This document shows, one piece after another, positions 3,192 through 23,571 of a stretch of 23,845 bases of DNA. Positions within the stretch are counted from its first letter, which is position 1, and each line of letters begins with the position of its first letter. The stretch spans positions 1-23,845 of IMG/VR virus record IMGVR_UViG_3300013115_000102; one strand, given 5' to 3'. This DNA is from a virus. Under the pieces are notes generated by a model. It saw nothing but the letters and a program-made list of their open reading frames with translations. It ran no database searches and was not told the DNA's origin. Both the position numbers and the translations under genes were made by a program.

Positions 3192-3818
3192 CTAAAAAGT
3201 ATCAGTTATTTTCGATTCGTATTCATCAAGTTTTTTAATGAATTTAGTTAGTCCCGTTTCGAAATCTTTCAAATCGTCTTTAATATCCTCGCGGTGAATT
3301 GTTACGATGTGAATCGGCCTAATCTCGAATCTTGGATCGAACGATACAAAATACATTGTTTCGATTGTTTCAGCCATTGCGAAATAATGGTAAACCTGAT
3401 ATTTGTATTCTGCGGGAACTCTATTTGTTCGAATGTATTCAACGTGTTTTTTAGTCGATGGACATTTAACCTCAACGCCTGCCATTGGGATATTCGCACC
3501 GTCTAAAATCAATCCGTCCGGTGAAAGGTGACAACCAGGTAATTTATCATTTGTTACTAATCCAAACGATTCGACTTTTAAATCTTGTCTATCCTCGAAC
3601 TCAGCGATTGCGATTGGTTCAAGGTCAATCCCTCTTTGCATTGCTTCGTTTACAAAATTTTCTTCGATGTGGTCCGAATGTCTCTCGGCGATAAGTTCAT
3701 CGATTAAAGGTAAATTGTTTTTGGCAAACGCGGATTTAACGCGCGTTCCACCAATTGAACCTTTTCTTAATTCGGTCCATTCTTTCGTTCTTTGTTCTAA
3801 CTCCTTAACTAAGTTCAT
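3192..3818 (-). CDS. YqaJ-like viral recombinase / lambda-type 5'-3' exonuclease
   Basis: The protein has 208 residues, a normal length for the YqaJ/lambda exonuclease family of the PD-(D/E)XK nucleases. It has the N-terminal RTKEWTELRKGSIGGT block, MQRGIDLEP (E67), LSPDGLI (D101), GVEVKCPSTKKH (E116 and K118, the catalytic ExK) and YKYQVYHYF (Q141). This enzyme degrades one strand of a duplex end to give a 3' overhang for single-strand annealing. The start overlaps the end of the upstream conserved gene by 14 bp, which suggests a functional pair. An AAAACACAA leader precedes the ATG. Family assignment is firm; the partner is discussed under the next gene. Confidence 0.92.
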   Translation of the reverse strand: MNLVKELEQRTKEWTELRKGSIGGTRVKSAFAKNNLPLIDELIAERHSDHIEENFVNEAMQRGIDLEPIAIAEFEDRQDLKVESFGLVTNDKLPGCHLSPDGLILDGANIPMAGVEVKCPSTKKHVEYIRTNRVPAEYKYQVYHYFAMAETIETMYFVSFDPRFEIRPIHIVTIHREDIKDDLKDFETGLTKFIKKLDEYESKITDTF

Positions 3819-4290
3819 TTTTCATTGTGTTTTTAGTGTTAATAATTTCTTTGTGATTCTTCTCGTCTGAATTTAAAGACTTCCAAATCGATTGAAGGTC
3901 TGATAAATCCAACGCTCCTTTTAATTTCTCGATCGCTTCGGTTGGGTCGATGTTCGCTTTTGGTTTTACTTGTCTAACTCTTAAAGCGTCGGTCGTTTCT
4001 CCAAATGCCGAAACTTTCTCGGTTCCAAGTAAAATTGTTTTTCCGATCCAATCCTCAACGTACGGCGAACCGTGAACGCTTGTAATTGTTTTCGCGTTTG
4101 TTTTGTTACAAATCATACCTTTGTCGACTTGCTCGAAATAAAGAACCATACACGACTCTTTTCGTCCCGACTGTCCTTCGACCTCTTCGTTTTTAACTTC
4201 GACGATTGTTAATTCTAAATCGTCACCATCTATTGAGTACCCGCCTAAATACTGGTAATCAAAATTGTTTTTCCAATGTGTTTTACTCAT
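3805..4290 (-). CDS. Conserved phage protein; candidate ssDNA-binding/annealing partner of the exonuclease
   Basis: The protein has 161 residues. The pattern MSKTHWKN...YLGGYSI, ELTIVEVKNEEV, CMVLYFEQ, MICNKTNAKTI, GSPYVEDWIGKTILL and VSAFGETTDALRVRQVKPK resembles a conserved phage protein I have seen next to YqaJ-type nucleases and that is usually left without a function. The alternation of beta-strands with conserved Gly and Trp over residues 5-110 would fit an OB-like fold, followed by a helical, charged tail (about 115-161). It overlaps the exonuclease gene by 14 bp and is the first gene after the second shared promoter element. No RecT, Redbeta or ERF signature is visible in the window, so a role in single-strand binding or annealing is a reasonable guess. 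That is inference from context. Confidence 0.7.
   Translation of the reverse strand: MSKTHWKNNFDYQYLGGYSIDGDDLELTIVEVKNEEVEGQSGRKESCMVLYFEQVDKGMICNKTNAKTITSVHGSPYVEDWIGKTILLGTEKVSAFGETTDALRVRQVKPKANIDPTEAIEKLKGALDLSDLQSIWKSLNSDEKNHKEIINTKNTMKNELS
3824..3833 (-). promoter_or_regulatory. AAAACACAAT leader of the exonuclease
   Basis: AAAACACAAT followed by GAAAA and then the ATG at 3818, lying inside the end of the upstream gene. It is a variant of the early-gene leader. Confidence 0.45.
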
Positions 4291-4304: not shown

Positions 4305-4341
4305 AAGATTATGAGATTAAAGTTATAAAATACTTTTTAAC

Positions 4342-4357
4342 TGAACAAATTTATTCA
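4342..4357 (-). promoter_or_regulatory. Shared promoter/operator element B (TGAATAAATTTGTTCA)
   Basis: On the minus strand this 16-mer contains TAAATTTG, an exact Bacteroidetes -7 box (TAnnTTTG), flanked by TGAA and TTCA arms. A near-identical element lies at 5114-5129. The distance from the box to the next ATG is 56 bp here and 57 bp there. No TTG -33 box is visible at the usual spacing, so an activator or phage factor may be needed. A second candidate -7 (TAACTTTA) lies just downstream. Confidence 0.5.
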
Positions 4358-4364
4358 ATAAAAT

Positions 4365-4562
4365 TTATATTTCTACTTCCGATCCGTCAGTTTTACGAAC
4401 TATAATCGTTGCGTCGCATAATTCGCAAAATTTTTTGAACTCGCTTAATTTCATTGTTTCGTCTCTGACTGATCTATGAAACGACGTCGAATGTGTTCTA
4501 ATTTGTTTCGCGATCGAATCGACTGAATTCGGTTTCGCTATTTCGTTTAGTTGTTTTTTCAT
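4365..4562 (-). CDS. Small putative HTH (Cro-size) DNA-binding protein
   Basis: The protein has 65 residues. Residues 13-55 (SVDSIAKQIRTHSTSFHRSV, then DETMKLSEFKKFCELCDATI) follow the helix spacing of short XRE/Cro-type HTH proteins of Bacteroidetes phages, with a final beta-strand IIVRKTDGSEVEI. I cannot verify the HTH without a profile search. The gene lies between the two shared palindromic promoter elements and stops only 7 bp from element B, a typical place for an autoregulator. Its start is preceded by AAAACACG, a variant leader, which overlaps the stop of the preceding gene. Confidence 0.5.
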   Translation of the reverse strand: MKKQLNEIAKPNSVDSIAKQIRTHSTSFHRSVRDETMKLSEFKKFCELCDATIIVRKTDGSEVEI

Positions 4563-4563
4563 G

Positions 4564-4860
4564 TTAACGTGTTTTGTATAATAATTCTAATGTTTTGCGG
4601 TATCTATCTTGCAACCTGGTTAACGCCGCTTTTTTAATCTCCCAAATATGATAACGTATTTTTGTTGTTGCTATCATATTGAATTGGTTATTATACCACT
4701 CTATTGATTTATAGGCCGCTTGTGTTTGTTTCTGCATGAAGTCGACCGAATTAGCTATATCCTCCAATAGATTAATCGTTGCGATTCGATATGGATCATC
4801 ATAGCTATATTTTGCCATTTCTTCAACCCTTCTTTGAATTTCGTTTTTAATTGCGTTCAT
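4564..4860 (-). CDS. Hypothetical helical early protein (98 aa)
   Basis: Not recognised. The sequence is strongly alpha-helical and charged, rich in Lys, Arg, Tyr and Gln, with no Cys and no membrane segment. Its ATG has an A-rich leader ending AAATAAACAAA instead of the AAAACACAA form. It lies 15 bp after the 61-residue gene and directly before the HTH gene, so all three probably share the transcript from element A. Small helical early proteins of phages often act on host proteins, but nothing here shows that. Confidence 0.65.
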   Translation of the reverse strand: MNAIKNEIQRRVEEMAKYSYDDPYRIATINLLEDIANSVDFMQKQTQAAYKSIEWYNNQFNMIATTKIRYHIWEIKKAALTRLQDRYRKTLELLYKTR

Positions 4861-4875
4861 TTTGTTTATTTGTAT

Positions 4876-5061
4876 TTAAAGTGATTCGTTTGCGAAGTCT
4901 ATTAATTTTTCCAATTCATACGATGCGTTCTCGTCATCTTTTAACCTTTCTCTAAGTTCAAACCTATAAGGCATGATTTTAAAAGGCTTAACATATTCGT
5001 TATTTCTTAACTGTTGCTCGTATTTAGCAATGTTTTGTTCTCTAAGTTCTTCGTAGTTCAT
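4876..5061 (-). CDS. Hypothetical early protein (61 aa), first gene of the early operon
   Basis: Not recognised. This is a short helical protein with N-terminal MNYEELREQNIAKYEQQL and a central FKIMPYRFELRERL segment. It is the first gene after promoter element A and has the full AAAACACAAC leader four bases before the ATG. The position and the strong leader suggest high early expression. There are no motifs, signal peptide or membrane segment. Confidence 0.65.
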   Translation of the reverse strand: MNYEELREQNIAKYEQQLRNNEYVKPFKIMPYRFELRERLKDDENASYELEKLIDFANESL

Positions 5062-5064
5062 TTT

Positions 5065-5074
5065 GTTGTGTTTT
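5065..5074 (-). promoter_or_regulatory. AAAACACAAC leader of the first early gene
   Basis: AAAACACAAC followed by AAA and then the ATG at 5061. It is nearly the same as the leader at 4295-4304, and the two transcripts would have leaders of similar length. Confidence 0.5.
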
Positions 5075-5111
5075 TAAATCGATGATGTAAAGATAATCAA
5101 AAAAAGTATTC

Positions 5112-5131
5112 AGTGAACAAAAATATTCACT
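5112..5131 (-). promoter_or_regulatory. Shared promoter/operator element A (AGTGAA...TTCACT around TATTTTTG)
   Basis: The arms AGTGAA and TTCACT form a perfect 6-bp inverted repeat with an 8-bp centre. On the minus strand the centre is TATTTTTG, a match to the Bacteroidetes -7 box TAnnTTTG. The core TGAATAwwTTTGTTCA is shared with element B. It lies 57 bp upstream of the first early ATG and just downstream of the late terminator. A TTG -33 box is not seen at normal spacing. TATCTTTA further downstream is an alternative -7. Confidence 0.55.
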
Positions 5132-5163
5132 TAATCGCTATTTAGAATGATTACAAATAAGAA

Positions 5164-5183
5164 AAGGTGACCGAAGCCACCTT
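5164..5183 (-). terminator. Terminator of the late/lysis operon, cUUCGg tetraloop
   Basis: On the minus strand AAGGTGGC, loop TTCG, GTCACCTT forms an 8-bp stem (one G-T pair) closed by the very stable C(UUCG)G loop, followed by TTCTTATTTG. It stands 47 bp after the last late gene and just before early promoter element A, so it separates the two blocks. Confidence 0.75.
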
Positions 5184-5229: not shown

Positions 5230-5430
5230 TTATTCTCCTATTATCTTAATAGCTTGTTCGTCATCGATTAAACCTTTCGATACTAAATAACAAGCCGCAA
5301 CGATTTGGATAATCCTAACCGCTAATTTTGCGAATTTTCTTTGTTTGGCGTTTGTTGTAACTGAATTAACAATGTTATCTAACTTCGCGCCTTTTGGGAT
5401 TGCTCCGTATATGTTTTTAATCCACTTCAT
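5230..5430 (-). CDS. Small one-span membrane protein of the lysis region (66 aa)
   Basis: Not assigned to a family. Residues about 35-55 (AKLAVRIIQIVAACYLVSKG) can form one membrane span; a basic stretch (KQRKFAKLA) precedes it and an acidic tail follows. It begins two bases after the endolysin stop and is the last gene before the terminator. By position it could be a spanin-like component, an antiholin or a small accessory holin. There is no lipobox and no cleavable signal peptide. Confidence 0.6.
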   Translation of the reverse strand: MKWIKNIYGAIPKGAKLDNIVNSVTTNAKQRKFAKLAVRIIQIVAACYLVSKGLIDDEQAIKIIGE

Positions 5431-5432
5431 AA

Positions 5433-5858
5433 TTACTTAATTTCGAAATGTGGGCGATCTAACCATCCTTTCCAGTTCCCCCCCCACTCTAACTTAACAC
5501 CTTCTAAGGCCGCCGCTTGTAACATACAAACCGCAACTTTATTAAATAACAGCTCTTGTTCTTTTGGATCCATAGTGTAAACGTTTTCACCTTTAACGTA
5601 CGGAATCACATCGACCGCTTTCCCGCTTTGGTGATATGATTTTTTATCGTATCCATCATATTTAGAAAAACTATTCTCGAACAATTTGTTTTGCTCGTCA
5701 GCTGTTCTTAAACCTCCAAACTCAGGAATTGACATATCAACACCGTCTTTTTTTCTTGATGCGATACGAATCGCTCTAAATAAAACACGTACGATTTTCT
5801 CGTCTACGCCTTTCATTCTGTTTAACGATGTTTGTCCCCACTGGTATTTTTGCGCCAT
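5433..5858 (-). CDS. Endolysin: M15 (VanY-like) L-alanyl-D-glutamate / D-Ala carboxypeptidase-type peptidase
   Basis: The 141-residue length is normal for a single-domain M15 phage endolysin such as the T5 type. The zinc site is complete: H76 and D83 in SYHQSGKAVDVIPY and H137 in RPHFEI, with FGGLRT (R51) upstream and LEWGGNWKGW before the last ligand. It cuts peptide stems of host peptidoglycan at the end of the cycle. There is no signal peptide, so it needs a holin to reach the wall. It lies between the STAS-like gene and the one-span membrane protein. An AAAACAC stretch sits 10 bases before the ATG, a weaker form of the early leader. Confidence 0.9.
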   Translation of the reverse strand: MAQKYQWGQTSLNRMKGVDEKIVRVLFRAIRIASRKKDGVDMSIPEFGGLRTADEQNKLFENSFSKYDGYDKKSYHQSGKAVDVIPYVKGENVYTMDPKEQELLFNKVAVCMLQAAALEGVKLEWGGNWKGWLDRPHFEIK

Positions 5859-23547: not shown

Positions 23548-23563
23548 AAAAAATCGATTTACT

Positions 23564-23571
23564 CAAATATA
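23564..23571 (-). promoter_or_regulatory. Possible -7 box TATATTTG upstream of the structural gene
   Basis: The minus strand reads TATATTTG, an exact TAnnTTTG match, 16 bp before the ATG of the Cys-rich gene. The -33 TTG is 24 bp upstream, slightly too far, and the transcript leader would be only about 10 bases. In AT-rich DNA this may be chance. Confidence 0.25.

Follow-up and report, generated by a model that had tools for sequence, protein, structure and literature searches.

The Cro protein of phage lambda is a small HTH_3 protein of an early operon, and the dyad operators that it reads are tripled between divergent promoters. For T4 MotA and lambda CII, the site of the regulator overlaps the -35/-33 region of the promoter at a fixed spacing. 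The published promoter of the Bacteroidetes consists of TTTG at -33 and TAnnTTTG at -7, and a TTTG -33 box gives full activity (PMC2483708); the -7 box has been placed at -12 to -5 (PMC9723704). The SOS (LexA-like) operators reported from the same phylum are GGA-N5-TCC and CTAA-N5-TTAG (PMC8565304), and the literature searched held few relevant papers on transcription control in Bacteroidetes phages.

The window analysed here is a virus record of 23,845 bases whose main genes lie on the minus strand, and the nearest cultured relatives found infect Flavobacterium. An operator over an early promoter is a kind of arrangement that is already known, and this phage is a further example of it. Like Cro, the candidate regulator p65 is small (65 aa), belongs to an early operon and is probably autoregulated, with dyad operators on early promoters, but it gives no detectable HTH_3 profile match, no integrase was found in the phage records, the operon genes are all on one strand, and the operators are single and dispersed and not tripled between divergent promoters. 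As with MotA and CII, the dyad overlaps the -33 region at a near-fixed spacing; in contrast to them, the phage site is an inverted repeat that also holds a good -33 box, and activation is here only a candidate. The promoter resembles the sigma-A promoter of Bacteroidetes and Flavobacterium (PMC2483708, PMC9723704, PMC7366714) in its invariant TTTG, in a TAnnTTT[G/A]-type box 19-23 nt away and in a predicted leader of about 22 nt, and differs from it in that the -7 box in many cases has a final A or the form TTAG and that a conserved dyad covers the -33 box. The SOS operators are likewise palindromic and found in Bacteroidetes, whereas the phage consensus TTAsTGAA-N8-TTCAsTAA has other half-sites and another spacing, and host control of the LexA type was rejected on this difference in motif (PMC8565304).

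Results

Elements and genes in the window

On the minus strand, the structural genes are followed by an M15-type endolysin gene (5433-5858), a small holin-like gene (5230-5430), an intrinsic terminator hairpin (5164-5183) and, just after it, the first element with its promoter P1. Terminator-like hairpins are found before P1 at the matching place in relatives. The P1 operon begins with the gene of a 61-aa protein (p61, 4876-5061), continues with that of a 98-aa protein (p98, 4564-4860) and ends with that of p65 (4365-4562). The second element, with P2, comes next, and the first gene after it encodes a 161-aa protein (phrog_21613, 3805-4290) and adjoins the gene of a YqaJ-like recombinase/exonuclease (PF09588, 3192-3818) in the P2 operon. 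Further on are a small zinc-ribbon-like protein, a protein of the P2 operon with a stand-alone DnaA C-terminal DNA-binding domain (PF08299, 2516-3046), which has a cysteine-rich tail, and a large protein of 779 aa (3-2339) that runs off the record; the latter is a homologue of a 790-aa protein of the relative G001 and is probably a primase/helicase.

The initial annotation described two copies of a palindromic 16-mer on the minus strand, and a pattern search of the record found both at those positions, TGAATAAATTTGTTCA (4342-4357) and TGAATATTTTTGTTCA (5114-5129); TGAATANNTTTGTTCA is matched exactly nowhere else in the record, and each 16-mer is unique there. The distances to the next ATG, measured between the last base of TTTG and the first of the ATG, are also the 56 and 57 nt that were claimed. 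Of the inverted repeat said to be formed by the arms, the dyad is present but imperfect, with 7 of 8 base pairs matching at 4342-4357 and 5 of 8 at 5114-5129. A first-order Markov model predicts 0.003 occurrences of the 14-base pattern per window, and two copies in one window were not obtained in any of 300 simulations. The arms alone, TGAA-N8-TTCA, are not above chance in the window with the same model (2 observed, 1.0 expected), and since they are expected once per window, the case for the element rests on its conservation. The two elements are real, go beyond chance and are kept in relatives. A weaker copy with 2 mismatches, TGAATACTTTTTTTGA, lies at 5097-5112 on the minus strand, right after the P1 operator and 17 bp away from it; in relatives, none was seen outside the near twin of the window.

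Promoter register

An alignment on TTTGTT was made of 31 sites, which come from about a dozen related phage lineages and are not independent of each other. The TTTG of the element is invariant (31/31), and downstream of it all 31 sites have a -7-type box (TA..TTT[GA] or TA..TTAG) at a spacing of 19-23 nt, which is exactly 20 in 26 sites and 19, 21, 22, 23 and 23 in the other five. Words of this type occur in the background at 0.0029 per position, or with a chance of about 1.5% per site. Because of this box, and of the match to the published Bacteroidetes promoter, the TTTG of the element is, as judged from the alignment, the -33 box of an ordinary host-type sigma-A promoter.

The centre of the element had been taken for the -7 box itself, and in favour of this TAnnTTTG is central in 23 of the 31 sites, both window copies included. 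In the other 8, however, CG, TG or TT replaces TA (e.g. TGAACGTATTTGTTTA) and the promoter is otherwise intact, the downstream -7 box being kept in every site, and we regard the centre as a most improbable -7 box. On this alignment the first reading is off by one promoter element, and because the register shifts, a regulator would cover the -33 box and not the -7 box. That both copies lack a normally spaced TTG -33 box, as was stated, is correct only with the centre read as -7, as the TTTG itself is at -33 spacing from TATCTTTA (22) and TAACTTTA (20).

In the window, the P1 operator is the 24-bp dyad TAAGTGAATATTTTTGTTCACTGA at 5110-5133, containing the 16-mer at 5114-5129; its TTTG, read as the -33 box after the consensus of PMC2483708, is inside the right dyad arm at 5118-5121, and the -7 box lies 22 nt further on at 5088-5095, as placed by the site alignment and the box position of PMC9723704. 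The P2 operator is the 24-bp dyad TTATTGAATAAATTTGTTCAGTTA at 4338-4361, containing the 16-mer at 4342-4357, with the TTTG that the alignment marks as -33 box at 4346-4349 and, after a spacer of 20, the -7 box at 4318-4325. All of these are on the minus strand. Both window -7 boxes are one base off the strict TAnnTTTG, and TAAATTTG is found at the place of the P2 -7 box in L020-L023. Most -7 boxes are without the final G, and the strict form is the downstream box in seven sites (L016, L017, L020, L022, L084, L092 and L129). Counting from the first T of TTTG, the transcript is expected to begin some 36 nt downstream, and not 5-10 nt past the element, which predicts starts near 5083 for P1 and 4313 for P2, with leaders of about 22 and 23 nt. 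A sigma-70 promoter scan was set aside as uninformative for this phylum.

Dyad shape and variation

The dyad extends over about 24 bp in the 31-site alignment (left half TTAsTGAAyrwa, right half tttgTTCAsTAA), with the best symmetry centre directly 5' of TTTG (0.66 against 0.53 for the next best), and the sequence upstream of the arms varies among sites. Within the left arm, alignment positions -8 (T) and -5 (A) never vary, and -7 is G in 23 of 31 sites; T-8 and A-5 are outside any known sigma-A element. Changes in one arm are clade-specific: the left-arm G is replaced by A or T in the L004-L008 group, and the right-arm C by T in the L009/L016/L017/L018 group. L004-L006/L008 have a weaker left arm, reduced to TATA at P2. 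Such single-arm changes would fit, without proving it, a dimer site able to tolerate a single weak half. At P2, L009 and L015-L017 carry another dyad (TTGACGTTTGTCAA), and no P2 dyad was found in L012. In this clade the dyad over the TTTG of P2 is TTGAC-N4-GTCAA, which occurs once in each of four loci, as TTGACGTTTGTCAA at L189:5483, L190:4422 and L017:3928 and as TTGACTTTTGTCAA at L009:3040.

Recurrence in related phages

The relatives, about a dozen related phage lineages, were collected by searches with the 65-aa and 161-aa proteins. Many of them have the element at both the P1 and the P2 place, and the conservation in related phages that the initial annotation had set as a test is borne out. 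A third copy, P3, follows the helicase gene in G001, G002, G003, G004 and G007 (records of 15-38 kb); P3 is found in all six close helicase relatives and is absent in the 16 distant phages listed. G003, L084/L115 and L092 have a fourth copy, P4, behind the capsid gene, and a further one lies ahead of the TerS-TerL operon in L129. The window shows two copies only because the record ends before the P3 and P4 places, and its near twin G004 carries P3. A PWM scan of the large contigs returned the P1-P4 sites and their reverse readings and nothing else, and no match was obtained in Flavobacterium phage Fpv5, in Phocaeicola phage BD26P1, in L024 or in 218 kb of distant helicase loci. When viral contigs were searched for the exact 16-mer, a -7-like word at a spacing of 18-24 accompanied it at 10 of 79 places. 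One of them, L095 (spacing 24), was read as chance, and the other nine are the known phages plus L084/L115, L092 and L129. Of what was originally proposed, a phage-specific early promoter class and an inverted repeat placed as a regulator site are supported.

Other features of these genomes can be mentioned here. In the near twin, the allele of the 161-aa gene is divergent (55% identity; window 3805-4290 against L025:4001-4495), yet the adjoining p65 is identical, which looks like an allelic replacement. The small genes right after P1, P3 and P4 vary among close relatives (L009, L015-L018, L084, L092, L197-L202), as if the conserved promoters marked slots for accessory genes. In G001, a DNA methyltransferase-like gene (L189:6636-7550) that the window does not have is placed between the YqaJ and zinc-protein genes. 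A second promoter class, TATATTTGA[AG]TAAA, has neither a dyad nor a consistent -33 box and was seen at 23558-23571 (-) of the window, at L195:4924 (+) and at L196:15869 (-); it is conserved ahead of a 383-aa structural gene and is probably a late promoter.

Candidate regulator

The elements had been linked to the 65-aa gene lying between them, and co-occurrence in relatives supports this. Among the small early genes tested, p65 is the only one present in every operator-bearing early region seen. G003 and G005 keep the operators and p65, and p61, p98, the DnaA_C protein and the zinc protein, none of which was detected in these two, were rejected as regulator for that reason. The contigs found via the 161-aa gene have a dyad promoter in 21 of 21 cases with p65 and in 0 of 17 without it, although 16 of these 17 are distant phages, which leaves L024 as the single close case behind the co-occurrence. 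By reading of its sequence, L024 has a TTG and a -7 box at the corresponding place, and no dyad. Shared as well are the 161-aa and YqaJ genes, but L024 has them and no dyad. A dyad operator is placed on the early promoter of p65 itself, as P1 precedes the operon ending in the p65 gene both in the window and in relatives, and p65 is in our view the most likely regulator to read the dyad.

No match to p65 was found in searches of Pfam, NCBIfam or PDB, and HTH_3 (PF01381) had no match in seven records at E 10. Its AlphaFold models, helices followed by a beta hairpin, reach a pLDDT of only 59 and 62; Foldseek with the low-confidence model gave no match with E below 0.7, and its matches were ignored. 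Bacterial genomes gave no homologue of either p65 or the 161-aa protein, and p65 was not found in sequenced phages. The suggestion that p65 is a helix-turn-helix protein is unproven. A switch of the lysogeny type was rejected, as the seven records, of which several are fragmentary, gave neither an integrase (PF00589) nor HTH_3 (PF01381).

Discussion

The promoter architecture, the conserved dyad, its recurrence at three to four places and its co-occurrence with p65 can be read from the genomes themselves. We hypothesize, with a probability of about 0.5, that p65 is an autogenous repressor which, as a predicted dimer, binds the dyad over the -33 box of the promoters of the P1-P4 class. The dyad, about 24 bp and centred near -36.5, covers the -33 box, so that a dimeric regulator and sigma could not easily occupy it at the same time. 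Promoters of this class precede the early operon (P1) and the recombination and replication operon (P2), and follow the helicase gene (P3) and, in some relatives, the capsid gene (P4). On entry of the phage, P1 would fire with host sigma alone, and p65 would accumulate and then shut P1 and, later, P2 and P3. P1 is the first promoter after the terminator and precedes the p65 gene, so that it must at first work with host sigma only, which favours repression. Repression, the binding of the dyad by p65 and the dimeric state of p65 are inferred. Against a repressor stand the absence of homology between p65 and any DNA-binding family, the -7 boxes that mostly end without G and could mean that help is needed, the weakened left arm in L004-L006/L008, and the other or missing P2 dyad in some relatives.

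The main rival to repression is activation, where a phage protein on the dyad at -33 would help or replace the contact of sigma region 4 and the promoters would be of a middle type, as for lambda CII and T4 MotA. The nearly fixed spacing to the -7 box and the sub-optimal last base of the -7 boxes would agree with it, but P1 transcribes the candidate regulator's gene from behind a terminator and so has to be active before any of that protein is present, and TTTG is identical to the published -33 box of full activity (PMC2483708), and we consider activation unlikely. It is similarly doubtful that tiny phage proteins without known relatives reprogram the Bacteroidetes RNA polymerase over -33, as an activator or a sigma-appropriating factor, and so define a middle-promoter class. 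A regulator of the host, and not of the phage, could read the dyad, and p65 indeed has no recognised DNA-binding domain; this is nevertheless quite improbable, as no copy of the element turned up in Fpv5 or BD26P1, which are phages of the same host phylum, its presence tracks p65, and the reported SOS operators of Bacteroidetes are of another form (PMC8565304). Equally improbable is that there is no regulator at all and that the left arm simply extends a strong phage promoter. In favour of this, conservation is highest in the right arm and TTTG, the left arm is the one weakened in L004-L006/L008, and the arms alone gain nothing from the Markov test, but the left arm, with T-8 and A-5 invariant and G-7 in 23 of 31 sites, reaches beyond the known sigma-A contacts and mirrors the right arm, and L024, which is without p65, keeps a TTG and a -7 box there without the dyad.

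Repression by p65 is the reading that we prefer, and what emerges is a defined regulon, made up of three to four promoters and a single candidate regulator gene, in phages related to those of Flavobacterium. Such circuits are little described in Bacteroidetes phages, which makes the finding one of moderate interest. If p65 binds the dyad, it would represent a new family of small DNA-binding proteins, and the pair of protein and operator would be a compact switch usable in flavobacterial genetics.
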